Below, one piece after another: positions 26,821 to 48,068 of a stretch of 64,000 nucleotides of DNA. Under the pieces are notes generated by a model. The model ran no database searches. It was given only the letters and a program-made list of their open reading frames with translations, and was not told the origin of the DNA. The position numbers were made by a program, and so were the translations under genes. The DNA comes from Deltaproteobacteria bacterium (GTDB taxonomy: Bacteria > Myxococcota_A > Polyangia > DRWM01 > JAAZOP01), in NCBI GenBank assembly GCA_016218765.1, contig JACRCZ010000147.1, positions 1 through 64,000 of the forward strand. Direction: 5' to 3'. How positions within the stretch are numbered: the stretch's first letter is position 1; every line of letters begins with the position of its first letter.

Positions 26821-26860
26821 CCGTAGACTATCCGCCGGTCGACTGGAGACTATTCTCCAG
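26821..26860. promoter_or_regulatory. Paired enhancer-like palindromes, site A
   Basis: On the minus strand CGGATAGTCTACGG (26821-26834) and GGAGAATAGTCTCC (within the 18-base palindrome 26843-26860) lie 22 bases, or two helical turns, apart. The sigma-54 promoter at 27015 is about 165 bases downstream. They belong to a set whose consensus is (C/A)GAATAGTCTTC(G/A). Confidence 0.6.
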
Positions 26861-27014
26861 CAAGTGGTGTCGCCGAGGGGCTCGGGCGCCGGCGTTCCGC
26901 CCCGGCGACCCCGTGTGCCGCACGTGGGGACCTCGCCCCGGGCCGGGAGGATTGGGCTTGACGGCACCGGTCGCGGGACGGCGCCGGCCCGGCGAAGGCC
27001 GGGCGACGGCGGTC

Positions 27015-27030
27015 GGGCACGGGACTTGCT
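27015..27030 (+). promoter_or_regulatory. Sigma-54 promoter P1
   Basis: GGGCACG-GGAC-TTGCT gives GG and GC ten bases apart and matches TGGCACG-N4-TTGCW except at the first base. The predicted start site is about 55 bases before the small lipoprotein gene at 27094. Confidence 0.7.
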
Positions 27031-27093
27031 CAGGGCATGCGTCGTCTTGCGCCGGCGCCGCCGGACGGCCGGCGCAAGGCAACGAGGTGAAGG

Positions 27094-27321
27094 ATGCGTG
27101 GAATTGGATGGGTGGTGGTCGCGCTGATGCTCGCACTGGGTTGCGCGACGACGGGGTCGTCGGGGGGGGGCGTGGAGCACGGAGGCGTCTCGCACGCGGA
27201 GCGCGGTGGTGGCGGCTCGGGCGTCGATCGCGGCGGCGGCGGGACGGAACGCACCAGCGCCGACCGCGGCGACTCGCGCGGCGGGCGTTCCGGCGGAGGG
27301 GGCGGAGGCGGGTGCCACTGA
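27094..27321 (+). CDS. Small Gly/Ser/Arg-rich lipoprotein
   Basis: A 75-residue product. Signal peptide MRGIGWVVVALMLALGCATTG with lipobox LALGC, then a mature part almost wholly Gly, Ser, Arg, Asp and Glu, ending in a run of Gly and CH. Three His and the C-terminal Cys are the only possible ligand residues. It is the first gene after sigma-54 promoter P1 and leads an operon-like string to 31246. An AACGAGGTGAAGG ribosome-binding region precedes the ATG. Function unknown. Confidence 0.6.
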   Translation: MRGIGWVVVALMLALGCATTGSSGGGVEHGGVSHAERGGGGSGVDRGGGGTERTSADRGDSRGGRSGGGGGGGCH

Positions 27322-27374
27322 CGGCCTGACCGCCGGCGTTGGCTGCCCCGGACAGTCGTGGTAGATGCCCGATC

Positions 27375-28463
27375 GTGCGTGTGGCCGTCCGAGGGTGCGG
27401 CTGGGCGGCCGGCATTGCCGCCTGCGTCGCACTGCACTCGCCGGCCGCCGCCGCGGCCGAGCCCGATCTGATCCTCGGTTCGTGCGAGCCCCTTCCTGCG
27501 AACGAGCTTGCCGGCGCGCTGAGCGCGCGGCTCGGCCGGACGGTCCAGGTGTCGGAGGCGCGTGAGGCTCCGGGTGGGGCCAGCGGGGACACCTGGGTGG
27601 TGAAGGTGTTCGCCGCACCCGGCGGGGCGGTCGTCACGCTCGAGTCGCCTGCGGGCGGGGTCTGGCGCCGGGAGGTTGCCTGGGCGGGGGATGCCGGGCC
27701 GGTCGACCGCCTCCGCTCCACGGCCTTGGCCATCGAGTATCTCCTGGCGCTGGCCGAGTCGCCGTTCGTCGAAGGCCCGCCGACCGATGGGGAGGTCCCG
27801 CGGGAGGCGTCCGAGCCGCCGCCGGCCGAGGTGCCGCTCACGCCGGGGCCACTGCCCGTGCCCGCGGCGGAGGCAGGCGGCTCGACGGCGTCACCGGCTC
27901 CCGCAGGGGATGCGACCGGCAGCCCCTTGCCGTGGCCGGAACAGCCCGGCACGAACGGTCCGTGGATGGGCGTCGCCGTGCGTGCAGGTGGTGCGGGGGA
28001 TCTTTCGGACCGATCGCCCGGCCGGAGCCGCGCCCTGTTGCTGGGCCTGCGGCTGGACGTCGAGTGGCCGTGGGGGGTGTGGTTGGAGGGGGAGGTCGAC
28101 TGGCACTTCGGCGAGGAGTCGAACCCCGAGACGCTTCGCCTGTACCAGGTGCCCGTCCGGGTTGGTGCGGGGGCGAGTCTGGCGGCCGCGGACTGGCGGA
28201 TTCGGATCGGGTTGCAGGCCGTCGTGGAGGCCTGGTGGACTTCCGGCGGCACTCCTCGATCCGGGTGGCGCCCCGGCGGAGGGCTCGTGCTTTCGGTGGC
28301 CCGCCACCTGCTGCCGTGGCTCGTCGTGGGCGCGGAGTTCGGCGTCGACCTGTTGCCGCCCGGTGTCGTGCTGATCTACGGGGAGACGTCCGTGTTCTCC
28401 CTGGGAGCGTGGCGGTGGTGGAGCGGCGTCTGGGTGGGCTTCGGTTCACGCGCCGGGGTGTAA
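27375..28463 (+). CDS. Secreted, probably outer-membrane beta-barrel protein
   Basis: GTG 27375 gives a clear signal peptide (VRVAVRGCGWAAGIAACVALHSPAAAAAE); the upstream TTG at 27339 does not. The mature N-terminal part (about 30-140) is a compact domain with ELAGALSARLGRTVQVSEA and VTLESPAGGVWRREVAWAG. A Pro-rich linker follows (about 140-200). The C-terminus alternates hydrophobic residues in strands and ends in aromatic-rich segments (GAWRWWSGVWVGFGSRAGV), suggesting a small barrel. Its place before an ECF sigma factor and FecR-like gene recalls the layout of cell-surface signalling clusters. No homologue was named with confidence. Confidence 0.5.
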   Translation: MRVAVRGCGWAAGIAACVALHSPAAAAAEPDLILGSCEPLPANELAGALSARLGRTVQVSEAREAPGGASGDTWVVKVFAAPGGAVVTLESPAGGVWRREVAWAGDAGPVDRLRSTALAIEYLLALAESPFVEGPPTDGEVPREASEPPPAEVPLTPGPLPVPAAEAGGSTASPAPAGDATGSPLPWPEQPGTNGPWMGVAVRAGGAGDLSDRSPGRSRALLLGLRLDVEWPWGVWLEGEVDWHFGEESNPETLRLYQVPVRVGAGASLAAADWRIRIGLQAVVEAWWTSGGTPRSGWRPGGGLVLSVARHLLPWLVVGAEFGVDLLPPGVVLIYGETSVFSLGAWRWWSGVWVGFGSRAGV

Positions 28464-28515
28464 GGAAACGGCGGGTGTTCGGGAACTGGCGGGGGGACGA
28501 TCGGGCGGCGCGAGG

Positions 28516-29088
28516 GTGACGGAGAGGGACGGACAGGATGGAGACGACGGGCCTGCCGAGGCCTCGGTGTCATCGCTGCTGGTCGCCCAGGTGGACGACC
28601 TGTCGGGCTACGCCCGCTTCCTGGTCGGCCGTTCGTCCCAGGCCGACGATATCGTGCAGGAGACGCTGGTGCGCGCACTGACCTCGTTCGCCCGGTACGA
28701 TCCCCGCCGCCCGCTGCGTGCCTGGCTGCGCGGGATCGCGTTGAAGGTGGCGCACAAGTACTGGGATTCGGCCCGGCGTGACGGGAGCGACGGGCCGGCG
28801 CACCGACGGGCCAGGGTGTCGAGGGAGGAGGTGCCCACGCCGGAAGAGAGCCTCGTACGGCGCGAGCGCGCCGACCTCCTCTACCGGGCGATGGACACCC
28901 TCCCGCTGCGCCTGCGCGAGGCGCTCGTCCTGCACGTCGGCGAACAGCTCCCGGCGGAGGAAGTGGCGCGCATGACCGGGACTTCGGTCACCAACGTCTA
29001 CACCCGCGCGAGTCGCGCACGGGCGATGGTCAGGGCCTTTCTCGCGGAACAGCGCCGGGAGCAGGCCGGGGAGGAGGAGACGCGATGA
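28516..29088 (+). CDS. ECF-type RNA polymerase sigma factor
   Basis: A 190-residue protein from GTG 28516. Sigma region 2: LSGYARFLVGRSSQADDIVQETLVRAL and RPLRAWLRGIALKVAHKYWDSARR. Region 4: RERADLLYRAMDTLPLRLREALVLHVGEQLPAEEVARMTGTSVTNVYTRASRARAMV, including the HTH. It redirects RNA polymerase to a small target set. It overlaps the following FecR-like gene by four bases (ATGA), as usual for sigma/anti-sigma pairs. No conventional ECF promoter was recognised upstream. Confidence 0.9.
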   Translation: MTERDGQDGDDGPAEASVSSLLVAQVDDLSGYARFLVGRSSQADDIVQETLVRALTSFARYDPRRPLRAWLRGIALKVAHKYWDSARRDGSDGPAHRRARVSREEVPTPEESLVRRERADLLYRAMDTLPLRLREALVLHVGEQLPAEEVARMTGTSVTNVYTRASRARAMVRAFLAEQRREQAGEEETR

Positions 29089-30362
29089 CTGTTCCGGACG
29101 TGCCGTCCTCCCGCGAGGCGCGCGACGAGGTTGACGAGCTGTTCGACGAGGCTCGCCGGCTGGCAGCGCCGTCCCGGCACGGGTCGCAGCCGGACTGGGG
29201 GGTGGTGTGGGCGGAAGCGCGCCGCCGCCGGCTCCGGCGCGTCGCCCTGGCGATTGCGGCCGGCGGGCTGGCCGCCGCCGCCGCCATGGCCTTGATCCTC
29301 GCGCCGGTCTTCTCGGAGCCGACGGCCCGCACGCCGCCCGGGCCTGCCGCGTCGTCGCCGGGCCCGGCCGCGGCACGTCCGGCGGAGTACCGGTTCCTGT
29401 TGCCGTCGCCGCGGGTGCGGATCGTGGCCGAGCGGGATGCCTCGTTGCGCGTGGTGTCGGGCGGGGAGGTGTCGCTGGCCGCCGGGGCCGTGTGGGTCCA
29501 TGTGGATGGCCGGCACGGGCGGGTTCCGTTCGAGGTGGTCACTCCGGACGTCCGGGTTGCCGTGGAGGGCACGCGTTTCGCGGTAGCCGCCGGGGGCGGT
29601 GCCGGCTCCACCGTGGCGGTCCTGGACGGCGTCGTGCACGTGCGAGCCGCCGGCCGGGAGGTCGTCGTCGGCGCGGGCGGACAGTGGCGAAGCGGTCTCA
29701 CGGCGCCGGGCCGCCTCGACCCGGTCTGGCGGGCGTCGCTGGCGTCGTTCTTCCCCGACGGCAACGAATCGGCGCCGGAGCCGCCGGGAGTCCGGCCGCC
29801 TCCCGCGCGACCGGTGGATGGTGCAGCGGTCGCCGCGCTGCCGGAGTCCGGCGGCGATTCCCGCGTCGGACCGGAGCCGGCGGCGCCGGCCGTGGCGGCG
29901 AACGATGGCGGCGACCCTCGCGAGGACGCGCGAGAGGGCGGGGATTCGGGCGGGTCACGGCCGCCCCCGAACGCTGCCGACGAGCTCTTCCGCCGGGCCG
30001 AGGAGGCGATGGCGGCCGGGCGTGCCGAAGAGGCGATGGACCTGCTGCGGCAGGCGGCGGACGTCGCCCCGGGGTCGGCGCTGTCCGGTATGGCGCTGCT
30101 GGAGCTGGCCGCGCAGGCCCGGCGCCTCGGCCGGCCGGAGCTCGCCGGTCCGGCGTGCGAGCGGTACCTCGCCGAGCAGCCCGCGGGGGAGTTCCGCGGC
30201 GAGGCGCGCATCGCGCTGTGCCGGATCCACGCGGGGACCGGACGTCCGGACCGGAGTCGGGAGTGCTATGCGGCGTATCTCGCCGAGGAACCGGACGGAA
30301 ACTACGCGGCCGAGGCTGCCCGGGGTGTCGAGGCTGGCGCCGGGGAGGATGGCGTCCCGTGA
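29085..30362 (+). CDS. FecR-domain anti-sigma-like protein with C-terminal TPR region
   Basis: A 425-residue protein. The cytoplasmic N-terminus (about 1-50, DEVDELFDEARRLAAPSRHG) is followed by a transmembrane helix (about 60-80, ALAIAAGGLAAAAAMALILAP). The periplasmic FecR domain (about 125-205) has RIVAERDASLRVVSGGEVSLAAGAVWVHV and VTPDVRVAVEGTRFAV. After a Pro/Ala/Asp linker, residues 295-420 form TPR-like helices (AEEAMDLLRQAADVAPGS). It should hold the ECF sigma factor until an envelope signal arrives. The stop overlaps the next start (TGATG). Confidence 0.85.
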   Translation: MTVPDVPSSREARDEVDELFDEARRLAAPSRHGSQPDWGVVWAEARRRRLRRVALAIAAGGLAAAAAMALILAPVFSEPTARTPPGPAASSPGPAAARPAEYRFLLPSPRVRIVAERDASLRVVSGGEVSLAAGAVWVHVDGRHGRVPFEVVTPDVRVAVEGTRFAVAAGGGAGSTVAVLDGVVHVRAAGREVVVGAGGQWRSGLTAPGRLDPVWRASLASFFPDGNESAPEPPGVRPPPARPVDGAAVAALPESGGDSRVGPEPAAPAVAANDGGDPREDAREGGDSGGSRPPPNAADELFRRAEEAMAAGRAEEAMDLLRQAADVAPGSALSGMALLELAAQARRLGRPELAGPACERYLAEQPAGEFRGEARIALCRIHAGTGRPDRSRECYAAYLAEEPDGNYAAEAARGVEAGAGEDGVP

Positions 30363-31246
30363 TGCCCCTGCGCCGCTTCCGCCGCCCGCTGGTCGCTGCC
30401 GGCGTCGCCGCGTCGTGCGTGGCGGCCGTCGCTTGGGGCTGCTTCGACCCCGAGCGGATCCACATCGAGCCCGAGCCCCCCAACGACACGTGCGCCGGCG
30501 CGAACGACCTCGGCGAAGGCGGCGTCTTCGCGGGCGACACCGGGCCGGCCGGCGACGACCACGAGCCCGTCGCGGGGTGCGGAGCCCCGGGCGGCCGGGA
30601 CGTCTGGTTCCGCTTCACGCTGGACGCGCCGGAGGTGGTCTACCTGGACACGGTGGACGGCAACACGTGGGACAGCGTGCTCGTGCTCTACGGCGGGACG
30701 TGCGGCGACCTTGCTCGTCCGCCGCTCTGCGCCGACGACCAGTGTCCGGGCGAATCAGGCGGCCGCCGCTCGCAGCTCGTGGAGCGGCTCGAGGCCGGTT
30801 CGTACGTCGTCGTCGTCGACGGCCGGGACGCGGCGGCAGCAGGCCCGTTCGCGCTGCGATTCCAGCGCGCGGCGTGCGCGGGCGCGATCGGTCTGCCCGG
30901 CAACGGTGCGTACGACGGAAATTCCATGGGCTGGGACGATCGGTTCCGCGGAAGTTGCGGAGAACCGGGGGTCCCCGACACGACCTACTACCTCGGCCTG
31001 TGCGCGCCGCGCGAGGTGACCGCATCGACCTGCGGCTCGATGGAGCGCTGCGACTCGATCCTGACGTTGGCCGCAGGTGGCTGCGAAGCGGCGGACGAGC
31101 TCGCGTGCAACGACGACGACGACACCTGCCGTTTCGGGATGGGCCGCTCGACGGTCACGGCGACGCTGCCCCAGGGCTTGAACTTCCTGATCCTGGAGAG
31201 CCGCTCGCCGCCCGGTCCGTACCGGCTGACGGTTTCCGGGATGTAG
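30362..31246 (+). CDS. Lipoprotein with two PPC-like beta domains
   Basis: A 294-residue protein with lipoprotein signal (RRPLVAAGVAASCVAAVAWGC). Two beta-sandwich units resemble bacterial pre-peptidase C-terminal domains: about 40-165 (PNDTCAGANDLGEGGVFAGDT, DVWFRFTLDAPEVVYLDTVDG, LEAGSYVVVVDG) and about 166-294 (TYYLGLCAPREVTASTCGS, LTLAAGGCEAADELACNDDDD, FLILESRSPPGPYRLTVSG). Several Cys pairs suggest disulfides. It is likely the exported product of the ECF/FecR operon, reaching the surface as a binding or scaffolding protein. No catalytic residues were seen. Confidence 0.65.
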   Translation: MPLRRFRRPLVAAGVAASCVAAVAWGCFDPERIHIEPEPPNDTCAGANDLGEGGVFAGDTGPAGDDHEPVAGCGAPGGRDVWFRFTLDAPEVVYLDTVDGNTWDSVLVLYGGTCGDLARPPLCADDQCPGESGGRRSQLVERLEAGSYVVVVDGRDAAAAGPFALRFQRAACAGAIGLPGNGAYDGNSMGWDDRFRGSCGEPGVPDTTYYLGLCAPREVTASTCGSMERCDSILTLAAGGCEAADELACNDDDDTCRFGMGRSTVTATLPQGLNFLILESRSPPGPYRLTVSGM

Positions 31247-31339
31247 GCCGATGGTAGTGCAAGGAAACTCCGGCCATTCCGGAATAGGCAGGCGCGGGGC
31301 GAAGCGACCCGGGCCGGGGCGCACAGCGTTCCGGCGGCC

Positions 31340-31355
31340 GGGCTTCGAGATTGCC
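31340..31355 (+). promoter_or_regulatory. Possible sigma-54 promoter P8, weak
   Basis: GGGCTTC-GAGA-TTGCC keeps GG-N10-GC and TTGC but misses ACG in the -24 box. It lies 35 bases before the ATG at 31390. The only nearby enhancer-like sequence is a partial ATTCCGGAATAG around 31276-31287, so this member is doubtful. Confidence 0.3.
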
Positions 31356-31389
31356 GGGCGAGCGGCGAGCGAGGGCCCAGGAGGCACGG

Positions 31390-33414
31390 ATGGGAAGGGC
31401 AGGACGCGGGACAGGTTGGCTTTCGGCGTGGGCGATCGTGCTGGTCGCGAGCGGTTGCGGCGGACGGTCGAGCCTGCTTTCGGGCGATGCGCCGGATCCG
31501 GATTCCGGGGGTGACGCATGGGAGGAATCGACGGACGTGCCCGGGGACGGGGACGAGGACACCCCTCCGGACGACGGCCGTGAGGGTGACCTCGCGGGCG
31601 GGGACGCGGACGCGGGCGCGGATGCGGACGCGGACGGCGACGCGGACGGGGACGATGCGGGCGACGTGCCGTGCCTCTGCCTGGACGACCTGGATTGTGC
31701 CGACCTGGAGCCCTGCAACGGCGCGGAACAGTGCATCGATTGCGCCTGCCGTCCGGGCATTCCGCCGGCCGATGGTTTCCCCTGCGATGACGGCGACGCG
31801 TGCACCGCGAGCGAGTCGTGCGCGGGTGGCGTTTGCGGGGGCGGCGAGCCGGTCTGCGTGTGCGAAGTCGACGACGACTGCCTCGCCTACGATGACGGCG
31901 ACCGGTGCAACGGGCGACCGCTGTGTGTCGGTCGTGCGTGCGTCTTCGATCCCGCCACCGTCGTGACCTGCGATTCGTCGGGCGACACGGCGTGCCTGGT
32001 GAACCGTTGCGTCGCGGTGTCGGGGGAGTGCGTGCCGATGCCGGTCGCGGACGGTACGGCGTGCGACGACGGCAATGCCTGCACGACCGGCGAGGCCTGC
32101 GGCGGCGGAAGCTGCGGCGGGGGAGTTGCGACGTGCGAGTGCATCGTGGACTCGGACTGCGCCGCCTACGAGGACGGGGATTCCTGCAACGGGACGCTGC
32201 GGTGCGACCTCAACGTCTGCGCGGTCGATCCGGCCACCGTCGTGACGTGCGATCCGTCGGGCGACTCCGCGTGCCTGGCCAACCGCTGCGCGCCGGCGAC
32301 GGGGACGTGTGCGCCGCAGCCGCGTTCCGAGGGCGCCTCGTGCGACGACGGCGACGCCTGCACGACGGGCGACGCGTGCGCCGCCGGGGTCTGCACGGGG
32401 CCCGCGCGGAGCTGCGCCGACGGGAACGCCTGCACCGACGACTCGTGCGACCCGGCAACCGGCTGCCTCAACGTGCCGAACGCGGCGCCGTGCGACGACG
32501 GCAACGCCTGCACCGTGACGGACGTCTGTGCGGCGGGATCGTGCGGCGGCGTCGCGCGGAGCTGCACGGACGGGAACGCCTGCACGGACGACACCTGCGA
32601 CCCCGCGACGGGCTGCGTCTTTCCGCCGAACACGGCGGCCTGTGACGACGGCAGCGCCTGCACCGTGGGGGACGTGTGCGCCCGGGGCGTCTGCACGCCC
32701 GGCGCCGCGCGCGCGTGCGACGATTCCAACGTCTGCACGGACAACGCGTGCGACCCGGTGACGGGGTGCGTCTACCCGCCGAACACGGCGGCCTGCGACG
32801 ACCGCAATGCCTGCACAACCGGCGATCGGTGTCGCGACGGGGCCTGCGCGTCGACGGGCTCCCTGGTCTGCGCGGACGCGAACCTCTGCACCGACGACAC
32901 GTGCGATCCGGCCGCGGGCTGCGTCTACCCGCCCAACGCGGCGCCGTGCGACGACGGCGACGCCTGCACCAGCCCGGACGTCTGCTCGGGCGGGGTGTGT
33001 ACCGGAACGGGCCTGCGCTCGTGGTACCTGGACGACGACGGTGACGGCTACGGCGACGCGCTCGTCGCCGTGTGCGCCGCCGCCGCGCCGCCCGGCTATG
33101 CCGACAATCCGGACGACTGCTGCGACACCGACTTCCGGGTCAATCCGGCCCAGACGTCGTTCTTCACGGTGGGCTTCACCTGCGGCAGCATTCCGTTGCT
33201 GCGCTTCGACTACAACTGCGACGGGAGGAACGAGCAGCAGTACACCGCCGCCGGCTCGTGCGCTCCATCCGGAAGCACCTGCGACTACGTGGCGGGGTGG
33301 ACGGAGGATGCCGTGCCGGCCTGCGGCGCCTCTGCCACGTTCCTGACGAGCTGTCGCTCGATGATGGGCTCGTGCAACGAGATGACCGGCGCCCGCGTCC
33401 AGGCCTGCAGGTAG
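31390..33414 (+). CDS. Large Cys-rich lipoprotein with Dickkopf-like repeats
   Basis: A 674-residue protein. The ATG at 31390 gives signal peptide WLSAWAIVLVASGC with lipobox ASGC. An acidic spacer (about 20-95, D/G/A/E) is followed by about ten repeats of around 45 residues each built on C-DDGNACTTGD-C-GGVC-G and CTDDTCDPATGC-PPNTAAC, with the spacing of Dickkopf/EGF-like extracellular modules. The C-terminal 130 residues are different: a CCDTDFRVNPAQTSFF and FDYNCDGRNEQQY domain with a Ca-binding-like DDDGDGYGD stretch before it. Likely an adhesive or structural surface protein. The Gly/Cys/Asp repeats are also repeated at DNA level and may vary in number between strains. Confidence 0.7.
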   Translation: MGRAGRGTGWLSAWAIVLVASGCGGRSSLLSGDAPDPDSGGDAWEESTDVPGDGDEDTPPDDGREGDLAGGDADAGADADADGDADGDDAGDVPCLCLDDLDCADLEPCNGAEQCIDCACRPGIPPADGFPCDDGDACTASESCAGGVCGGGEPVCVCEVDDDCLAYDDGDRCNGRPLCVGRACVFDPATVVTCDSSGDTACLVNRCVAVSGECVPMPVADGTACDDGNACTTGEACGGGSCGGGVATCECIVDSDCAAYEDGDSCNGTLRCDLNVCAVDPATVVTCDPSGDSACLANRCAPATGTCAPQPRSEGASCDDGDACTTGDACAAGVCTGPARSCADGNACTDDSCDPATGCLNVPNAAPCDDGNACTVTDVCAAGSCGGVARSCTDGNACTDDTCDPATGCVFPPNTAACDDGSACTVGDVCARGVCTPGAARACDDSNVCTDNACDPVTGCVYPPNTAACDDRNACTTGDRCRDGACASTGSLVCADANLCTDDTCDPAAGCVYPPNAAPCDDGDACTSPDVCSGGVCTGTGLRSWYLDDDGDGYGDALVAVCAAAAPPGYADNPDDCCDTDFRVNPAQTSFFTVGFTCGSIPLLRFDYNCDGRNEQQYTAAGSCAPSGSTCDYVAGWTEDAVPACGASATFLTSCRSMMGSCNEMTGARVQACR

Positions 33415-33548
33415 GTACGCACCGTGCAGGTGCGCGGACGCCGGTCGCTTACGTCCCATGGCGCCTGCCGGGGCGCCCTTTCCGGCCGGGGCGATCCGGT
33501 CGCGTCCGCGGGACGCGGCCCCGGTGCGACGAGTCGGGAGGAAGAAGA

Positions 33549-34052
33549 ATGAACGATCGCAATCCGAATGGTATCAGGACGAGTTGCCTGTCGCCGGGGG
33601 CGGTCGTTGTCCTCGTGCTGGCCGGGTGCATGGGCGACGGGGACATGGGCTCGGCGGGCCGCGCCATGTCGGACGGGCTGGAGCAGGTCCGTCAGGCCGG
33701 CGGGGTCGTGCGGAGCGGCCTGGAGGCGTATCGGTCGGGCCGGGCGGACGAGGGCATGACGATGGTGAGCGAAGGACTGGATCGGATGCACGGCGGCATG
33801 GAAGGCATGCGCGGCGGCATGACCTCGATGCACGGCTCCGGCTCGATGGACTGCTGCATGGAGGCGATGGACTCGGCCATGTCCATGATGAGCGGCGGGA
33901 TGGACATGATGGACGCCGGCGCGGGAATGATGGACGACGGCGACATGGGCAACGACGCGTCCGGCATGTCGATGATGGAGTCGGGCATGGGGTCGATGGA
34001 CAGCGGCGCCGACGCGATGGACGGCGCGTTGGGTTGCGGCGCGATGATGTGA
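33549..34052 (+). CDS. Met-rich lipoprotein, possible copper binder
   Basis: A 167-residue protein with lipobox VLAGC (signal CLSPGAVVVLVLAGC). After a helical segment (about 45-85) the remaining 85 residues contain more than 30 Met, in clusters such as MSMMSGGMDMMDAGAGMMDD, with one CC pair. Periplasmic copper and silver proteins (CusB, CusF, PcoE/SilE types) use Met clusters of this kind to bind Cu(I) or Ag(I), and a CusBA-like efflux system lies 7 kb downstream. Binding is inferred; no fold is known for this protein. An Asp/Met protein follows 46 bases later. Confidence 0.55.
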   Translation: MNDRNPNGIRTSCLSPGAVVVLVLAGCMGDGDMGSAGRAMSDGLEQVRQAGGVVRSGLEAYRSGRADEGMTMVSEGLDRMHGGMEGMRGGMTSMHGSGSMDCCMEAMDSAMSMMSGGMDMMDAGAGMMDDGDMGNDASGMSMMESGMGSMDSGADAMDGALGCGAMM

Positions 34053-34098
34053 GGTCCGCTTCCGTCGAGGCTCGTGGAGCAGGGCCAAGGAGGTCCGC

Positions 34099-34473
34099 AT
34101 GAACCGCTTGTTGCTGGCCGGATGTGTACCGTGTGTCGTCCTCGCCTTCGGTTGCGACGGTGGCGGCGAGACCGGGGACGCGGGGGAGGAGACGATCGTC
34201 GACGAGACGGCCGACGGCGGTTCCGACGTCGAATCGTCCGACGCGCCGCTCGAGGACGATGCCGCGGCGGCCGAGGACGCCATGGGCGAGGACGGGATGG
34301 ACGGCGTCGATGTGATGGAGGAAGGCGGGATGGAAGTCGCCGACGCCATGGAGGAGGGCACGATGGACGCCGGCGACGCGATGTCCGACGGGATGGACGG
34401 CGCCGACGGGATGGGCGAGGGCGGGATGGAGGGCGGCGGGGGCGACGGCATGATGGGCGAAGGCGGAATGTGA
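34099..34473 (+). CDS. Asp/Met-rich lipoprotein
   Basis: A 124-residue product with signal LLAGCVPCVVLAFGC and lipobox AFGC. The mature part is nearly all Asp, Glu, Ala, Gly and Met (over 20 Met), as repeated EDGMDGVD and DAMSDGMDGAD units. Its last 11 residues, GGDGMMGEGGM, are identical to the C-terminus of the lipoprotein at 36648. The acidic Met pattern could bind metal ions. It probably shares a transcript with the Met-rich gene before it. Unknown otherwise. Confidence 0.5.
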   Translation: MNRLLLAGCVPCVVLAFGCDGGGETGDAGEETIVDETADGGSDVESSDAPLEDDAAAAEDAMGEDGMDGVDVMEEGGMEVADAMEEGTMDAGDAMSDGMDGADGMGEGGMEGGGGDGMMGEGGM

Positions 34474-34597
34474 CGCTCCCGCCCCCGACTCGAGCCTGAC
34501 GAAGATCCTCCCAGGCTCCGGGCGCCATTCTTGACTGCCTACCGATGGGCCGATCGGCGTCCGGCACCGGCCACTGCGCAAGATTCGCGCAGCGAAC

Positions 34598-34614
34598 GGC
34601 GAATACTCTTCGGC
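34598..34614 (+). promoter_or_regulatory. Enhancer-like palindrome, site B
   Basis: GGCGAATACTCTTCGGC is palindromic at CGAA...TTCG. A weaker inverted partner (GCGAATCTTGC on the minus strand) lies about 25 bases before it. The sigma-54 promoter P2 starts about 150 bases downstream. Confidence 0.55.
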
Positions 34615-34749
34615 CTGCCGCCGGCGTGCCGTCCACCCGCACGGTGGCTGGGTTCACGATCCGCACGCCTGCTGAAAACACCCAGCGAATCCCCAAGGCT
34701 CCTGCGTGACCACAGCGTCGGTCTCCGGGACGCGCCTGTGCGCGCACCG

Positions 34750-34765
34750 TGGCACGAAAGACGCA
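34750..34765 (+). promoter_or_regulatory. Sigma-54 promoter P2
   Basis: TGGCACG-AAAG-ACGCA: a perfect -24 box and GC at -12, ten bases apart. It lies about 80 bases before the YHS-like gene. Confidence 0.65.
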
Positions 34766-34857
34766 CAATCCCGTCGAGCAATGAACGCGCCGGTGTACCG
34801 GATGAAGGCGTGGGACGGCAACGGCCGGCCGGCGCGCCGGCCGGGAGGAGGGAATTC

Positions 34858-35370
34858 ATGAGATACTCGATCGTCGACACCGTCCTGGTCGCGGGTGCCG
34901 TCGTGCTGGCCGGGGGTGCGGTGGGGGCCGCGGTTGTGGTTGCCGGGGGGGCGGATTGCGGGGGCAAGTCCGGTGACTCCCGCCCGGAGACTCCGCAGCC
35001 GAGTGCGGTCGCCTGGACTGGCGGCGGGCGTGGGGGCGGCGCGTCGAGCGCGTGCTCGGCGGCCGACGGGCCGTGGCCGGCCTTGGCTTTGGGCGCAACT
35101 TCGGCCTGCACGGTGGGGTCGGCGGAAACGCCGATCCAGACCTCGTTCCAGACGGCCGAGCCGACGGTCGGCACCGCGAAGGACCTCGATCCGGGGAAAC
35201 TGGGGCAGTGGGCGGTGTGCGGCGTCACCGGCAGCACGTTCCTCGTCGGCAGCGGCACGCCCGCGGTCGAGGTCCGCGGCAGCGTGCACACGTTCTGCTG
35301 TGACACCTGCGCGACCCGCTTCCTGACCGGTCTGCTGGTCGCGAGCGGCGAACCTGTGGGGGGCACCTAG
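34858..35370 (+). CDS. Secreted or membrane-anchored YHS-like protein
   Basis: The ATG at 34858 follows GGAGGAGGG. Of 170 residues, an N-terminal hydrophobic helix (VDTVLVAGAVVLAGGAVGAAVVVAG) is followed by a Cys-containing, Gly/Ser-rich middle and a C-terminal domain like that of the lipoproteins at 47733, 48139 and 54583: TAKDLDPGKLGQWAVCGVTGSTFLVG, then VHTFCCDTCATRFL. YHS domains bind soft metals through Cys, and the FCC-xx-C segment is the likely ligand site here. It is more divergent than its relatives and has lost the NPQ(Q/R)FGAP end. Controlled by sigma-54 promoter P2, by position. Confidence 0.6.
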   Translation: MRYSIVDTVLVAGAVVLAGGAVGAAVVVAGGADCGGKSGDSRPETPQPSAVAWTGGGRGGGASSACSAADGPWPALALGATSACTVGSAETPIQTSFQTAEPTVGTAKDLDPGKLGQWAVCGVTGSTFLVGSGTPAVEVRGSVHTFCCDTCATRFLTGLLVASGEPVGGT

Positions 35371-35520
35371 CCGGGTCGGATACGGCGACGCCGGCGACGT
35401 GCCGCCGCAGTACCGGAAGCCACCGGCCGTCGAAGTGACTGGATTCCCGGACGACGAGGCCGGCGCCGTGGAGGGCGGCGAGCGGATCGCTCGTCGGGTC
35501 GCACCCTCCTGCCTCCCGCC

Positions 35521-36135
35521 TCACGGCCCGCAAGTGCCCCACAGCCCGCGGTTCGCACTCCGGGCCTCGCGCTCGGCTCCCTCGAAGGTGCTCCGGTACG
35601 TCTCGTTGTCCGAGAACACGTAGGCCCGCGCGTAGCCCTCCAGCACCAGCTCGAGGTTGACCCAGTCCGGCGGAACAGGAGCCGGCGCGTCGCCGGCGAA
35701 CACATGGGCCAGGAGCCGGCCATAGCGATCCCGCTCGGTCGTGTCGAACGTGAGCCAGACCGGGGACCCCGGCGGCGTCAGCTCCGTGGCCCGCACGCGG
35801 GCCTGCGCCGCAAGACACTCCGGCGCTCCGCTGCTCGGGTACAACTCGGGGGCGTCGATGCTCAGGAAGCGGACGTGTGAGGTGCTGCCGTCCTCGAAAC
35901 GCACGTTGAAGGTGTCGCCGTCGATGACCGAGATGACGACAGCATTGGCCGGCGCCCGGGCCGGGGGACGACCTTGCGGAAGCGATGCCGGGTCGAAGGG
36001 CGACGCGTCGGGCGCATCCGGCGCGCTCGCGTCACCGCCGTCCGGTGTCTCGCCGACGTCGCTCTGCGGTCCGGCAGGGACGACGCACGCGGCGAGCCAG
36101 ACGCACGCCGGCAGGAGGACGAACCCGCTTCGCAT
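35521..36135 (-). CDS. SNase-like lipoprotein nuclease
   Basis: The ATG at 36135 gives a lipoprotein signal (LLPACVWLAAC) of a 204-residue protein; a longer upstream frame has no signal. A short acidic spacer precedes a staphylococcal-nuclease domain (about 65-200): VVISVIDGDTFNVRF (Ca-binding Asp), HVRFLSIDAPEL (catalytic Arg and Asp), TERDRYGRLLAHVF (catalytic Glu and Arg) and LVLEGYARAYVF. All key residues are present, so a surface-exposed Ca-dependent DNase/RNase is likely. Sigma-54 promoter P6 and site C lie upstream on this strand. A 150-base tail to 35371 separates it from the YHS-like gene. Confidence 0.8.
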   Translation of the reverse strand: MRSGFVLLPACVWLAACVVPAGPQSDVGETPDGGDASAPDAPDASPFDPASLPQGRPPARAPANAVVISVIDGDTFNVRFEDGSTSHVRFLSIDAPELYPSSGAPECLAAQARVRATELTPPGSPVWLTFDTTERDRYGRLLAHVFAGDAPAPVPPDWVNLELVLEGYARAYVFSDNETYRSTFEGAEREARSANRGLWGTCGP

Positions 36136-36202
36136 CACCCTCGAACCTCCATTCCGCGCCGGGGAGTGGTCTCGATCCCGACGCCGAGCCGCCGGTGGGC
36201 GA

Positions 36203-36218
36203 TGCACGGTCCGTGCCG
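36203..36218 (-). promoter_or_regulatory. Sigma-54 promoter P6, minus strand
   Basis: Read on the minus strand: CGGCACG-GACC-GTGCA, with GG and GC ten bases apart. It drives the SNase-like lipoprotein 68 bases away. Site C is about 150 bases upstream. Confidence 0.65.
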
Positions 36219-36345
36219 GCAAGCGTGAGCCGGCCGCACCGCCCCGGTCGGGACCGCCGGAGACCGGCTTGCGCCCCAACGCCACCGCGCATCGCGCGCG
36301 GGACCCCCGACGTCATGCGGGTCGGCGGGGCCGGCGTCGCATCGG

Positions 36346-36380
36346 CGAGAATACCGCAGTCCGGTGGAGAATAGTCTTCA
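36346..36380 (+). promoter_or_regulatory. Paired enhancer-like elements, site C
   Basis: GAGAATACCGC (from 36347) and GGAGAATAGTCTTC (36366-36379) have GAATA cores 20 bases apart, about two helical turns. P3 begins about 210 bases downstream. Confidence 0.55.
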
Positions 36381-36588
36381 AGCGTCGGTCGGACTGCCCG
36401 CGGATGCTCGGCTCGTCCGTCATCCAGTCGCGCGTCCCTGCCGGCTCGGCCACTTCGGCCGGGGGATCGAACGGTGCGCACCCGGACCGTGCATTCGCCG
36501 GGTTGCGCTTCCGCTGCGGGCGACCCCGGCCGCACCGAAGCGGCTTGGGACCGGGGGGGCCTGGCCGCCCGAGGTGCAACCGCGAGTC

Positions 36589-36604
36589 CGGCACGAAAGT
36601 CGCT
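36589..36604 (+). promoter_or_regulatory. Sigma-54 promoter P3
   Basis: CGGCACG-AAAG-TCGCT: GG-N10-GC and the same AAAG spacer as P2. It is 44 bases before the lipoprotein gene at 36648. Confidence 0.6.
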
Positions 36605-36647
36605 CGGGCTTCCGGCCTGTCCGGGGGGTGGGCAAGGAGCGCGACGG

Positions 36648-37262
36648 ATGGAAACGAAGATCCTGGTGGCGACGGTCCTGCTGGCCTGGGCGGAATTGGG
36701 GTGCGACAACGGCGGGGCGTCGGACGAAGACGGGATGCCGTTCGACGTTGTGGCGGACGCGGATGAGGGCGACCCGGAAGCGGATGCGGTGGACGAGACG
36801 GCCGACGGCGGCGATGAGGCCGCCGAGGACGGGCCGGAGGAGGCGGCACCGGACCTCGCCGGAGACGGCGGTGCGGGCCGCGTCGGCGACCCGTGCACGG
36901 AGTCGGCCGACTGCCCCGCGGGCGGTTCGGGCTCGGCCGTCTGCCTGACGGACTGGCCGGGCGGCTACTGCGCGGTGGAAGCCTGCGCCGATCACGGCCA
37001 CGACTGCCCGGAGGACCCGGGGCTGGGCGGCACCGCCACCACGGGCGGGAAGTGCGTCCTCGATCCCACGCAATTCTGCCTTGCCTTGTGCGCGAGCGAC
37101 GGCGATTGCCGGCCGGGCTACGTCTGCTCGCCCCAGCCCGACGCCGCCGGGCACGGCACCGCGAACGTCTGCGTCCCGAGCGCGCCCGGTGGCGACGCCG
37201 GCATGGACGGCTCGGGCGATGCGATGGGCGGTGACGGCATGATGGGGGAGGGCGGGATGTGA
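36648..37262 (+). CDS. Lipoprotein with acidic spacer and Cys domain, paralogue of 49800
   Basis: The ATG at 36648 follows CAAGGAG. A 204-residue product with lipobox ELGC. Acidic spacer to about residue 78, then a Cys-rich domain (GDPCTESADCPAGGSGSAVC, DWPGGYCAVEACADHGHDCP, TGGKCVLDPTQFCLALCASDGDCRPGYVC) that is about 75% identical to the C-terminal domain of the lipoprotein at 49800. The 49800 relative ends after that domain, but this protein carries an extra Met-rich tail, GDAMGGDGMMGEGGM. Its sigma-54 promoter P3 has no counterpart at 49800. Unknown function. Confidence 0.65.
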   Translation: METKILVATVLLAWAELGCDNGGASDEDGMPFDVVADADEGDPEADAVDETADGGDEAAEDGPEEAAPDLAGDGGAGRVGDPCTESADCPAGGSGSAVCLTDWPGGYCAVEACADHGHDCPEDPGLGGTATTGGKCVLDPTQFCLALCASDGDCRPGYVCSPQPDAAGHGTANVCVPSAPGGDAGMDGSGDAMGGDGMMGEGGM

Positions 37263-37280
37263 GCCGGCGGGGGCGATCGC

Positions 37281-38309
37281 TCAGGGCTTTCGGCGGCGAA
37301 ACGTCAGGACGAAGAGGAGAACGGCGCCGGCGAAGGCGGGCGAGGCGAGCGAGGCGCCCGCGGTGGAGCAGGAGCAGCCGGTGGCGGAATCGGCGCCGGG
37401 GTCAGGTTCGATCGCATCGCCGGACCCGTCGTCGTCGAGCGCCGGGATGTCCGACGGGTTGTCGACGTCGCCGCCGTCCGCGGCGATGTCGTCGCCGTCC
37501 CCGGCATCCGGGGACGGCTCGCCGCTCTCGTCGCCCGGCCCGATCGTCGCGTCGCACCGCCCCGCTTCGGTGATGTCGTCCACGACGAGCTTGTCGATGC
37601 GAGCGCGACCGGCCGCCTCGTCATGCACCCACAGGTTGGCTCCATCCCAGGCGACGCCGGTCGCCAGGTGTCCGGGCCCTCCGGGACCGGCGAACGAGGA
37701 GATGACTTCCCCGGTCGCGGGATCGAGGTGGTAGACCAGCCCGTCCTCGGTCGCATCGGTGACCCAGAGGCAAGCGCCGTCCCAGGCCAGTCCGCAGGCG
37801 CCGGCGGCCGGGGCTGGGATGGTCCGTCGCACGTCGCCCGTGGCCGGGTCCAGCTCGAAGATCAGGCGGTCCCACGGGTCGACGTTCCAGAGGCTGCCGG
37901 CCGGCGCGGCGAGGCCCATGGGGTACTGGGAGCGTCCGGGGGCGTCGAAGCTCTCGAGGATCCGGCCGTCCGCGGGGTCGACGTGGTACAGGCGCGGGGG
38001 AGGCGCGCCCATCCCGGGCATCTCGGTCGCCGTGTGATCGCTGACCCACAACGCGGCGCCGTCCCAGGCCAGCTCGTCCGAGAAGACGCCCGTCACGTCG
38101 ATGCTCTCGAGCACTTCTCCGGTCTCGGGGTCGATCTTGTCAATCCGGGTGCTGCCGCAGTCGGTGGCCCACAGGGTTGCACCGTCCCAGGCCAGCCCGT
38201 CTGGCGACGGGAAGGACGAGGGGAAGCTCGTGACCACGTCCCCCGTGGCACCGACGGCCGCCGCGGGGATCAGACCGGCGAACAGGACAATCAGACACGA
38301 TCGATTCAT
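37281..38309 (-). CDS. Secreted beta-propeller-like protein with MYXO-CTERM-like C-terminus
   Basis: A 342-residue protein with a signal peptide (SCLIVLFAGLIPAAAVGA). About five repeats contain WDGATLWATDCGS, DPETGEVLES, WDGAALWVSDH and similar, the WDG-LWV-D pattern of six-bladed propellers. Residues 240-310 are an acidic spacer. The end is GCSCSTAGASLASPAFAGAVLLFVLTFRRRKP: a Cys/Gly motif, one hydrophobic helix and a basic tail, the layout of MYXO-CTERM sorting signals. It would be held at the surface after sortase-like processing. Its sigma-54 promoter P7 lies 30 bases upstream. Confidence 0.7.
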   Translation of the reverse strand: MNRSCLIVLFAGLIPAAAVGATGDVVTSFPSSFPSPDGLAWDGATLWATDCGSTRIDKIDPETGEVLESIDVTGVFSDELAWDGAALWVSDHTATEMPGMGAPPPRLYHVDPADGRILESFDAPGRSQYPMGLAAPAGSLWNVDPWDRLIFELDPATGDVRRTIPAPAAGACGLAWDGACLWVTDATEDGLVYHLDPATGEVISSFAGPGGPGHLATGVAWDGANLWVHDEAAGRARIDKLVVDDITEAGRCDATIGPGDESGEPSPDAGDGDDIAADGGDVDNPSDIPALDDDGSGDAIEPDPGADSATGCSCSTAGASLASPAFAGAVLLFVLTFRRRKP

Positions 38310-38339
38310 GACACACTCCCTTCCGCGGCCGGCCGCTCC

Positions 38340-38355
38340 TGCACGCGTCGTGCCG
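38340..38355 (-). promoter_or_regulatory. Sigma-54 promoter P7, minus strand
   Basis: Minus strand: CGGCACG-ACGC-GTGCA, with GG-N10-GC. It is 31 bases before the propeller gene. Site D lies about 175 bases upstream. Confidence 0.65.
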
Positions 38356-38503
38356 TCCCCCCGCTCCGGAATGCCTGACGCGGCGAGCGCGCGGTGTGCG
38401 GGCTCCGAGCCCGGGTGCTGCGACGATCACGACGATTCCCCAGGTCGACAGCGGGCCGCCGCGGTCGCGTCACGCTCGAGCGGCCCCTCCTGCGCACGGA
38501 GAC

Positions 38504-38543
38504 TGTCGAGTATTGCGCACGCGGGCGCTGAATAGTCTTCGGT
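38504..38543. promoter_or_regulatory. Paired enhancer-like elements, site D
   Basis: TGAATAGTCTTCGG (38529-38542) has a weaker inverted partner (GCAATACTCGAC on the minus strand, 38505-38516) about 25 bases away. It is central between P7 and P4, at 150-175 bases from each. Confidence 0.55.
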
Positions 38544-38681
38544 CGGTCGTGGCGCCCCCGTGGTGCCGGGCTTCGATCGTGGAGCGGGAGGCGGCGCGAG
38601 TATCACTGGATGGGCGCGGAACCGCTCCGGCCCCCGCGTGGGTCGTGCATCGCGCGCGGGTCGGTCGCCGTCAGCCCGCTG

Positions 38682-38697
38682 TGGCACGCAGCTTGCT
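38682..38697 (+). promoter_or_regulatory. Sigma-54 promoter P4, perfect consensus
   Basis: TGGCACG-CAGC-TTGCT is a full match to TGGCACG-N4-TTGCW. The kinase-like gene starts 215 bases later, so there is a long leader. Confidence 0.8.
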
Positions 38698-38911
38698 CCT
38701 GGCGCACGTGCGCCGTCGGCGCGGGCGCTCGACGGTCAGGCCACGGCGGCCGCGTCGGCCGCGGCCGAGCGTCCCGCGCACCGGCACGGCGGCCCTCCGG
38801 GACGGGCCTCCCACGATCGGGACGTCGCGCCGTCGGAGCGGCACGGTCGCCCGATGCCCGGCGACCTGCGTGGCTACCGCTGCTGGTGACCGTCGCGCGG
38901 GAGGGTGGGGC

Positions 38912-39970
38912 GTGGATCACGGGATGAACGTGCTGGGGCCGGGGACCGCGTTCGAGTTGTCCGCCGATGTGGAGCGCCACCTGGGCTACCGGCCCGGGGC
39001 AGTACGCATCTTCGCCGACACGTCGGCGTTCAGCAGCATCGACCGGGGCGATGCGCTGGAGCTGGGCGGCCGGTACTACCTCGTGACGGGAACGGTCCGT
39101 GAAGAGGGGCTCGGCCTGGACGAGCAGCCCAAGTACTGGGTCAAGCGTGCGGTCCTGTGCGGGAGCGGAGCCGAGAAGATCGTCAAGCTCGTGTTTCTCG
39201 AGCAGTTCGACCTGCACTTCGGGGAGAGCGTGGTCCGTTGCTTCCGCAGCCCGGCCAAGGAGGCGCGCGTGTTGGACCGCGTGCGCCGCCATCCACAGTT
39301 CATGACGGGCACGAGCCTGCGCGACCGGGCCGGGAACAACGTCCGGGTCATCGATGTGATCCCGGGACCGTCGCTGGAACACCACGTCGGGAATCTCCCG
39401 GTCGGTCACGAGGAGTACTTCCACCGCGAGGTCCCCGCCCTGCTCTGGCGATTCCTGCCGTGCCTGGAGGGATTGCGCTTCCTGCACGAACACGGCGAGC
39501 GGCATGGCGATGTCCGACCGGATCACATCATCCTGGATCGCAACTCCGGCCTGCTGCGCTGGATCGACTACGACTACGACTACGACTATCCGGAGGCGCC
39601 TTTCGGTCTCGACATCCTGGGTGCGGGCCACGTCCTGGCGTTCATCGTGGGCCAGGGCGTGATGGACCGGCGCCGACTGCTCCGCGAGCCCGGCCTGGCC
39701 CGTACCCTCGACCGGATCGGCCCCGGCGACCACTCGGTGGTCGATCGCCGCCGGGTCGTCAACCTGGGCGCGTGCTTCCGGTACATCCCGGCTTCCCTGA
39801 ACCGTGTTCTCATGCACTTCTCGGCGGGAGCTGAGGTCTTCTACGAGCGCATCGCGGAGCTGGCCGAGGACCTGGGGGAAGCGCTGTCGGGCATGATCGC
39901 CCCGGCGCCGGGAGAGGTCACATGGGCTTGTCGCGCGCGGAGACGAAGCGGGTCCTGGTCGTCGCCCTGA
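38912..39970 (+). CDS. Kinase-like protein, paralogue 2
   Basis: GTG 38912 (after GGAGGG) or ATG 38924 both align with the start of the 25064 paralogue. The 352-residue protein is about half identical to it: YYLVTGTVREEGLGLDEQPK, EKIVKLVFLEQFDLHFGE, RDRAGNNVRVIDVIPGPSLE, HGDVRPDHIILDRNSGLLRW, IDYDYDYDYP. It differs by about 55 extra residues near 255-310 (MDRRRLLREPGL and ACFRYIPASLNRVLMHFSA). HGD and DYD stand in for HRD and DFG. Its last 49 bases overlap the UspA gene. With sigma-54 promoter P4 in front, it is likely stress-induced, while paralogue 1 has a sigma-70 promoter. Confidence 0.65.
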   Translation: MDHGMNVLGPGTAFELSADVERHLGYRPGAVRIFADTSAFSSIDRGDALELGGRYYLVTGTVREEGLGLDEQPKYWVKRAVLCGSGAEKIVKLVFLEQFDLHFGESVVRCFRSPAKEARVLDRVRRHPQFMTGTSLRDRAGNNVRVIDVIPGPSLEHHVGNLPVGHEEYFHREVPALLWRFLPCLEGLRFLHEHGERHGDVRPDHIILDRNSGLLRWIDYDYDYDYPEAPFGLDILGAGHVLAFIVGQGVMDRRRLLREPGLARTLDRIGPGDHSVVDRRRVVNLGACFRYIPASLNRVLMHFSAGAEVFYERIAELAEDLGEALSGMIAPAPGEVTWACRARRRSGSWSSP

Positions 39971-40827
39971 CGATCGGCGCGGTCACGGCGCTCCACTACG
40001 GCACCGACGCTCACCACCTCCACCTGCACGTCGTGTTCCGGGAGCTGTACTTCGTTCCCATCCTCCTGGCCGTGGTCGGCTTCGGCCTGCGGGGCGGTCT
40101 GGTGGCGGCGGCCGTGATCACGGCGGTCTACGCGCCCCATGTCGCCACCAGCATCCATACGGCCGAGTCGACCGTGGGTAATGCGCTCCAGCTCGTGTTC
40201 TTCCACCTGATCGGCGCGGCGGTCGGGGCGTACACGGACATGCGCCGCCGCCACCAGGCCGCCGACCAGGGCGATCCGGACCCGACGCCGGGGCGGTTTC
40301 CCCAGCAGGTCCTCGTCGTCGTCGATCACGGGCCCGCGGGAATGCAGGCGGCCGAGTTCGCGGGCGCACTCTTCGCCAAGGACGACGCGGCGGGCTTGAC
40401 CCTGGCGTCCGTGTGCGAGGAACCCAAGGCCGACTATTTCGCCAGCGCCGAGGCTCATGCGGCGGAGGCGGCCTGCGCGGCGGCGCGGGCCGAGGCGGGG
40501 GTGCAGCGCGCGGCGATGGTCCTGGCGAAGCGCGGCGTGCCGGAAGAGCGGATCGCGACGCGGGTCCTGCGGGCCGACGGACGGCCGTCCGATGCGATCC
40601 TGCGCGAGCAGGACCACGGAGCGTACGATGTGATCGTGGTCGGACGGCGCCGGTTGACGCGCGCGGAGGAGTACCTGTTCGGCGACGTGGCGGTGCGACT
40701 TACGCGGCGGGCCTCCTGTCCCGTGATCGTCGTAAGCGGTCCTTCGGAAGGCGGAGGGACGCCGGCGCACGAGGGTGCCGCCGCCCAGGCCGACCCGGGT
40801 CCCGCGACCGGCGCTCGGGGAAGTTGA
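39922..40827 (+). CDS. Membrane protein with His-rich input module and cytosolic UspA domain
   Basis: A 301-residue protein. Four transmembrane helices (about 8-115) carry the module shared with the histidine kinase at 11443: TALHYGTDAHHLHLHVVFRELYFVPILL, GLRGGLVAAAVITAVYAPHV. A linker leads to a UspA domain (about 128-285): QVLVVVDHGPAGMQAAEFA, GAYDVIVVGRRRLTRAEEYLFGDVAVRLTRRASCPVIVVSG, with the G-x2-G-like ATP-binding end partly altered. It is translationally linked to the kinase-like gene, suggesting the pair acts together: membrane sensing, UspA-type nucleotide binding and phosphorylation. That link is an inference. Confidence 0.7.
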   Translation: MGLSRAETKRVLVVALTIGAVTALHYGTDAHHLHLHVVFRELYFVPILLAVVGFGLRGGLVAAAVITAVYAPHVATSIHTAESTVGNALQLVFFHLIGAAVGAYTDMRRRHQAADQGDPDPTPGRFPQQVLVVVDHGPAGMQAAEFAGALFAKDDAAGLTLASVCEEPKADYFASAEAHAAEAACAAARAEAGVQRAAMVLAKRGVPEERIATRVLRADGRPSDAILREQDHGAYDVIVVGRRRLTRAEEYLFGDVAVRLTRRASCPVIVVSGPSEGGGTPAHEGAAAQADPGPATGARGS

Positions 40828-40842
40828 CCCTCTTCCGGCTCG

Positions 40843-40878
40843 GCGAATAGTCTTCGGTACATTCATGGTTATTCTCCG
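40843..40878. promoter_or_regulatory. Paired enhancer-like elements, site E
   Basis: GCGAATAGTCTTCGG (40844-40858) and the inverted GGAGAATAAC (minus strand, 40868-40877) are centred about 22 bases apart. The sigma-54 promoter P5 lies 110 bases downstream. Confidence 0.6.
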
Positions 40879-40954
40879 GCGGGCCGTTGAAGCCGAGTCG
40901 GGCGATGGGTGGTAATGCCGGTGATTCCTTGGGGTTCGTGGCGGCGACGTGGAC

Positions 40955-40970
40955 TGGCACGGGAGACGCT
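40955..40970 (+). promoter_or_regulatory. Sigma-54 promoter P5
   Basis: TGGCACG-GGAG-ACGCT: perfect -24 box, GG-N10-GC. It lies 66 bases before the TolC-like gene, so it would drive the whole efflux operon. Confidence 0.65.
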
Positions 40971-47736: not shown

Positions 47737-48068
47737 AGAAGGTCCTCGTCGTCCTGTCCGTCGTGTTCGCCGTCAGTGCCTTCGCCGGGCTTGCCTGCAC
47801 CCGCGAGGACGGGCCGGGGGCCCAGGGCCAGGGCGCCGCGGCGCCGGCCGACGCGACGCTCGGCACCGCCGCCGAGCTGGCGCCCGAGCGGGTGGGGACG
47901 GAGGCCGTCTGTCCCGCGACCCAGGAATCGTTCACGGTGGAGGCCGCGACCGAGGCGGCAGTCTACCAGGGCCAGCTCTACCTGTTCTGCTGCCCGGGAT
48001 GCCGCGGCCGGTTCCTCGGCAACCCGCAGCAGTTCGGGGCGCCGGCACCGGCCGGCGGAGGAACGTAG
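47733..48068 (+). CDS. Small YHS-like lipoprotein
   Basis: A 111-residue product from an ATG overlapping the RND stop. The lipobox is GLAC (VVFAVSAFAGLAC). A short Ala/Gly-rich stretch precedes one YHS-like domain: TAAELAPERVGTEAVCPATQESFTV, VYQGQLYLFCCPGCRGRFLGNPQQFGAP. Usual YHS reads CPVCGM...YYFCS..C..F..P; here CPxTxxxFTV and FCC-xx-C replace these. Cys positions are kept for a metal or persulfide site. Likely a periplasmic metal chaperone for the pump; untested. Confidence 0.7.
   Translation: MKKVLVVLSVVFAVSAFAGLACTREDGPGAQGQGAAAPADATLGTAAELAPERVGTEAVCPATQESFTVEAATEAAVYQGQLYLFCCPGCRGRFLGNPQQFGAPAPAGGGT

Follow-up and report, generated by a model that had tools for sequence, protein, structure and literature searches.

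The window, the whole stretch of DNA analysed here, comprises bases 1–64,000 of the 143,655-bp contig C117 from the assembly of an uncultured groundwater bacterium (5.9 Mb, 80% complete; GC content of the window about 73%). It contains a 14-kb island in which a 14-bp palindrome, GRAGAMTAKTCTYC (pattern GRAGA-MTAK-TCTYC), is found at five loci, here named A to E, together with seven sigma-54-type promoters, P1 to P7, which precede genes for a CusA-type pump and several envelope proteins. Genome-wide counts given below are pattern searches of the assembly and of fetched stretches, and the comparison set includes four congeners, namely the window genome, G001, G002 and G003. The last of these is a groundwater metagenome-assembled genome deposited as a Deltaproteobacterium, and its contig JACRCX010000117.1 carries the paired element. 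The elements and promoters are, in order of position:

26823..26836, unstranded: element A1, second palindrome copy (GTAGACTATCCGCC), 11/14 match, centre 22 bp from A2
26845..26858, unstranded: element A2, full palindrome GGAGACTATTCTCC, 14/14 match
27015..27030, + strand: sigma-54 promoter P1, GGGCACGGGACTTGCT, conserved in the congener as GGGCACGATGCTTGCT
34598..34611, unstranded: element B, GGCGAATACTCTTC, 12/14 match
34750..34765, + strand: sigma-54 promoter P2, TGGCACGAAAGACGCA
36203..36218, - strand: sigma-54 promoter P6, CGGCACGGACCGTGCA
36366..36379, unstranded: element C, full palindrome GGAGAATAGTCTTC, 14/14 match, between divergent P6 and P3
36589..36604, + strand: sigma-54 promoter P3, CGGCACGAAAGTCGCT
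38340..38355, - strand: sigma-54 promoter P7, CGGCACGACGCGTGCA
38527..38540, unstranded: element D, GCTGAATAGTCTTC, 12/14 match including the exact 11-mer, between divergent P7 and P4
38682..38697, + strand: P4, perfect sigma-54 consensus TGGCACGCAGCTTGCT, 0 mismatches
40842..40855, unstranded: element E1, GGCGAATAGTCTTC, identical in the congener
40864..40877, unstranded: element E2, CATGGTTATTCTCC, centre 22 bp from E1, conserved in the congener
40955..40970, + strand: sigma-54 promoter P5, TGGCACGGGAGACGCT, in the congener GGGCACGGAAGGCGCT at the same 113-bp spacing

An earlier note on this DNA had described an element at five loci upstream of promoters, and it is present at all of them, although its description is now widened to the 14-bp palindrome, complete copies of which lie at 26845 and 36366. 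The exact 11-mer GAATAGTCTTC, covering 11 of the 14 positions, has only 3 copies in the whole assembly, all of them in the island, with none for the reversed control. In a position-weight-matrix scan of the window the top five sites were the five element loci, the matrix having been built mainly from them, and a further partial match proposed near 20790 found no support in either the pattern or the matrix scans of the window. The element had also been said to be often doubled 20–25 bases apart, which holds for 26823/26845 and 40842/40864, where the centres are exactly 22 bp (two helical turns) apart, but not for the remaining loci, which have at most half-sites, one third locus possessing such a half-site.

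All seven promoters were found at the places and on the strands proposed earlier, each with GG-N10-GC, and they show 0–2 mismatches to TGGCACG-N4-TTGCW over 12 fixed positions, with P4 being a full TGGCACG-N4-TTGCT. The -24 GG and -12 GC of the TGGCAC-N5-TTGC core are present in every one of them. A loose sigma-54 score is useless here because it gives 53 matches in the 64-kb window. The strict pattern BGGCACGNNNNNYGCW, which is common to P1–P7 and was derived from those seven after the fact, has 9 matches in the window, two inside genes and seven intergenic, the latter being exactly P1–P7. Across the genome it has 133 matches (about one per 44 kb) versus 236 for the reversed control, and in the 14 kb of the island seven were seen versus 0.3 expected. 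The predicted start sites lie 21–83 bp from the start codons, except for P4 (about 205–217 bp), and the 5′ leaders of the predicted transcripts are plausible.

The arrangement of the two kinds of site is seen directly in the DNA. At each of the five loci a palindromic site falls within the roughly 80–250 bp upstream of a promoter that would be expected for an enhancer acting by looping, elements C and D lie between divergent promoters as reported before, and each of the seven intergenic strict sigma-54 matches is directed away from an element 100–210 bp off. The latter values are measured edge to edge; the spacing given earlier as 110–220 bases is corrected to 113–223 bp from start to start. 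The assembly contains 35 palindromes with up to two mismatches, and the DNA around all of them was inspected: next to five of them, all within the island, which makes up 0.24% of the genome, a strict sigma-54 promoter directed away from the palindrome lies at 60–300 bp, while none of the other 30 has such a promoter at this distance. A random intergenic position in the window has a 0.16 chance of such a promoter neighbour, a value raised by the crowding of promoters in the island, and even so five out of five corresponds to a probability of about 9e-5.

The earlier note had expected pairs of element and promoter to be enriched genome-wide upstream of lipoprotein and metal genes, which the pattern search did not bear out, and had regarded random genomic positions of such pairs as a refutation, which was not observed either. 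Since all five paired palindromes belong to the 14-kb cluster, this is a local island, and a genome-wide regulon is rejected. With regard to more distant members of the class, the exact 11-mer matches inspected there had no convincing promoter at enhancer distance, and in several genomes the 11-mer counts equal those of the reversed control.

Among the three other congeneric genomes only G003 possesses both the pump and the paired element, G001 and G002 having neither, and of two scans of genome contigs with the outer-membrane gene, one gave no match and the other the G003 contig alone. The gene order around the island is kept in G003. The P1 site of the congener consists of two strong palindromes, GGAGACTATGCTCC and GAAGACTATTCTTC, 22 bp apart, and at the P5 site the doublet is retained with its 22-bp period and the same 113 bp to the promoter. 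When the P5 regions are aligned, the first 100 bases show 32 identical positions out of 36 in the 36-bp doublet, compared with 32 of 64 in the flanks (Fisher test, 6e-5), and at both P1 and P5 the -24/-12 cores are kept while neighbouring bases change. The rest of the island is missing from G003, where the stretch between P1 and P5 (L092 14539-15507, G003:C68) holds gene fragments. Immediately behind the P1 gene of G003 there are still fragments of the window genes 31351-33414 and 33458-34473, which suggests a deletion in G003 rather than a late acquisition by the window genome. The sigma-54/enhancer arrangement proposed in the earlier note is strongly supported by the position of the sites, their orientation, their rarity and their retention in a second species, and the pairing of element and promoter can be considered real and probably functional.

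The genes of the island, those of the pump locus included, are as follows:

27094..27321, + strand: small Cys lipoprotein, first gene after P1, with an orthologue after P1 in the congener
28516-30362: ECF sigma/FecR genes, following the small Cys lipoprotein
34099..34473, + strand: Met-rich lipoprotein (11% Met and tail DGMMGEGGM in the translation), no element of its own
34858..35370, + strand: protein with the YHS/TRASH-like Cys motif FCCDTCATRF, after P2, weak Pfam zf-FCS/TRASH matches
35521..36135, - strand: Staphylococcal-nuclease-type lipoprotein, after P6, Pfam PF00565, E 1.6e-14
36648..37262, + strand: Cys-rich lipoprotein with tail DGMMGEGGM, after P3, paralogue of 49800-50486
37281..38309, - strand: repeat (propeller-like) protein with a MYXO-CTERM anchor, after P7, NCBIfam TIGR03901
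38924..39970, + strand: kinase-like protein, after P4, weak Pkinase match, paralogue of 25064-26041 (58% identity)
39922..40827, + strand: UspA protein with an N-terminal His-rich membrane domain, Pfam Usp
41036-42436, + strand: CusC-type gene, outer-membrane factor, OEP
42433-44211, + strand: CusB-type gene, adaptor with a heavy-metal-binding domain (HMBD), HlyD_D23 and HMBD
44215-47736, + strand: CusA-type pump gene, TIGR00914 over cut-off
47733-48068 and 48139-49056, + strand: two YHS/HMBD proteins, Pfam YHS and HMBD

The kinase-like gene might just as well start with the GTG at 38912. P5 probably drives the genes for the outer-membrane factor, the CusB-type adaptor and the CusA-type pump, and P2, P3, P4, P6 and P7 each probably drive the gene listed after them. 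The pump scores 1028.5 against TIGR00914 (cut-off 701.5), among solved structures E. coli CusA (3k07) is the best match to it, and all three methionines of the triad, the Cu/Ag-binding M573, M623 and M672 of E. coli, are aligned with methionine. The protein at 34858..35370 is related to the YHS proteins of the congener, in which a lipoprotein with the DGMMGEGGM tail precedes P5, and the Met-rich lipoprotein at 34099..34473, resembling copper-binding Mets motifs, is a possible copper binder. Taken together, the pump, the YHS/HMBD proteins and the Met-rich and Cys-rich lipoproteins point to copper or silver. Two paralogue pairs lie inside or just outside the island, 25064-26041/38924-39970 (58%) and 36648-37262/49800-50486 (70%), which suggests its growth by local duplication.

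The regulator had been sought at 10110, where two overlapping genes are located:

10110..11462, + strand: candidate activator, NtrC-type response regulator, Sigma54_activat, Response_reg and HTH_8
11443..12561, + strand: candidate sensor, histidine kinase with a His-rich membrane domain in which there is a weak DUF4118 match

The 10110 protein has the GAFTGA loop, the Walker A motif GESGTGKE and a Fis-type helix-turn-helix. There are 48 PF00158 matches in the genome, 42 of which gave an activator open reading frame for comparison, and the 143-kb contig carries no activator other than 10110-11462. Functional orthologues of the pair are found only in G003 among G001–G003, that of 10110 being 95% identical, and the G003 locus closes contig C72, with the gene order that one would see were C72 the neighbour of the island contig C68. 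The nearest G001 protein (L176 6828-8147, G001:C9) is 57% identical to 10110 and has neither GAFTGA nor such a kinase beside it; it appears to be a degenerate, that is decayed or repurposed, sigma-54 activator. The usual context of the phospho-acceptor Asp is also lost in this relative. Another activator, on L177 at about 2724-4050 (G000:C118), has its receiver domain seemingly in a different frame from the AAA+ domain, possibly as a result of a frameshift or an assembly error.

Kinase 11443 and the UspA protein from the P4 operon have a homologous membrane domain, N-terminal in the latter (36% identity over 94 aa, E 7e-16), which spans 11443-11820 and 39922-40270 and has the conserved histidines ALH, H..RxLY and PH. 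In the four congeners it is present only in kinase 11443, the island UspA protein and the G003 kinase, being absent from G001 and G002, which makes it a candidate metal or membrane sensor module. Because this domain is common to 11443 and UspA, the kinase/activator pair is tied to the island independently of distance. The earlier guess that 10110 is the regulator thus gains circumstantial support from species distribution and the shared domain, and based on co-occurrence, proximity and that domain we lean slightly towards 11443 and the enhancer-binding protein 10110 as the cognate system.

It is quite likely, judging from the sequence, that we are dealing with a sigma-54 island in which one NtrC-type activator controls a joint copper/silver envelope gene set through a dedicated palindrome. 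A signal, copper or silver or the state of the envelope, would be received by kinase 11443, whose His-rich membrane domain would sense the metal or the membrane state, and 10110 would then be phosphorylated. Its dimers or a higher oligomer would occupy GRAGAMTAKTCTYC at the five intergenic sites and, by looping of DNA over 100–210 bp, contact the sigma-54 RNA polymerase and open P1–P7, with the CusCBA pump, the YHS/HMBD proteins, the lipoproteins, the UspA protein and the ECF/FecR operon as the joint output. The UspA protein, carrying a copy of the kinase sensor domain, would itself be under the control of the regulon. As for the signal, we incline to copper on the grounds of gene content. A bolder proposal, which we regard as speculative and rather unlikely, is that the His-rich domain is a Cu/Ag sensor in the kinase and, repeated in the regulon-made UspA protein, feeds back on the signal, so that sigma-54 and not CusR or CueR would control the Cus pump and the envelope island.

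Several points weigh against the reading of a copper-linked sigma-54 island under 10110. Taken alone, the strict promoter pattern is no commoner in the genome than expected by chance; it is the cluster of seven, not the promoters as such, that constitutes the evidence, and the pattern was drawn from the same seven. The presence of rpoN is implied indirectly, by about 42 sigma-54 activators, and the assembly is 80% complete. The nuclease, the repeat protein and the kinase-like protein have no obvious copper role, and the ECF/FecR operon adds nothing direct in this respect. The footprint is seen in two species only, one of which, G003, is without most of the island, and both binding and activation by the regulator are inferred. 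The 11443/10110 pair lies 15 kb from the nearest element and has no element of its own, and about a dozen of the 42 activators, 10110 among them, are matched by an orthologue in G003 but in neither G001 nor G002.

The last two points would also fit the same sigma-54 island with its palindrome bound by another enhancer-binding protein, 10110/11443 serving other genes. Naming the activator by genome comparison alone fails, as about a dozen candidates are left. We consider this alternative well possible, although 10110 is the sole activator on its contig and, within the assembly, the sensor domain of 11443 recurs in one island gene alone.

A 14-bp palindrome could fit many types of regulator, and, given the background frequency of the promoter pattern, the element might instead be bound, as an operator, by an ordinary transcription factor of non-activator type, with the GG-GC boxes being incidental. 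This is improbable: a repressor site or a site for a sigma-70 activator would be expected on or beside the promoter, whereas the seven promoters all face away from an element at a distance, and the -24/-12 cores of P1 and P5 have been kept in the congener amid changed neighbours. Recent local duplication, for which the gene paralogues of the island provide some precedent, could also have spread a single intergenic region and left a repetition without functional meaning. But the five regions are not one promoter copied around, since apart from the element they have only short patches in common; moreover, spacing (113–223 bp) and orientation vary and a second species has preserved the two loci that it shares, so this very improbable explanation is largely refuted. 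Chance clustering picked out by a motivated reader, which GC-rich DNA with its many weak sigma-54 look-alikes (the 53 loose matches) might encourage, is hardly credible in view of the genome-wide rarity of the pairs and is refuted by the conservation test in G003.

The preferred reading, a sigma-54 island with its own activator and palindrome, can be compared with several known systems. The CusA-type pump with its Met triad, the CusB-type adaptor and the outer-membrane factor resemble E. coli CusCFBA. The E. coli pump is controlled by an OmpR-type regulator (CusRS), whereas here the promoters are of the sigma-54 type and the palindromes lie at a distance from them. Activators that work with sigma-54 from upstream palindromes are of a known kind: in the NtrC-family regulons reconstructed in Desulfovibrio vulgaris, too, palindromic sites stand at least about 100 bp away from the -24/-12 promoters, several operons depend on one activator and divergent operons share one site, but no metal-efflux regulon is described among them, the words ‘efflux’ and ‘heavy metal’ being absent from the text (PMC4641369). 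In ZraSR-ZraP, metal and envelope-stress genes are under an NtrC-type two-component activator (PMC12316311). That zinc-related sigma-54 system is similar in its control of metal and envelope genes but has different targets, and 10110 and 11443 score 357 and 149 bits against the ZraR and ZraS models, below the curated cut-offs of 760 and 479, respectively.

In the open-access papers searched, GAATAGTCTTC was not found as a bacterial regulator site, nor was there a direct precedent for sigma-54 with copper or a Cus pump. Judged by those papers, the type of control is a known one, while the 14-bp element, the island and the sigma-54-controlled Cus pump appear undescribed. Myxobacteria-like genomes contain dozens of sigma-54 activators with unknown targets; in this case the sequence by itself suffices to name the site, the promoters, the genes and a limited set of possible regulators, all of which could be tested with little bench work. 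Should the signal be copper, a sigma-54-controlled Cus pump would join the controls known mainly from CusRS and CueR.

Two minor features of the region should also be mentioned. REP-like palindromes, CACCCTTCAGGGTG, GGGCTGAAGCCC, GAGCYTGTCGA and CCGCGGTC..GACCGCGG, occur at 42495-42700 and 44125 inside the CusB-type coding frame, in the N-terminal linker and at the C-terminus. The protein encoded at 31351-33414, possibly part of the P1 transcription unit, matches PF00526 (Dictyostelium Cys repeat), which is unusual in bacteria.

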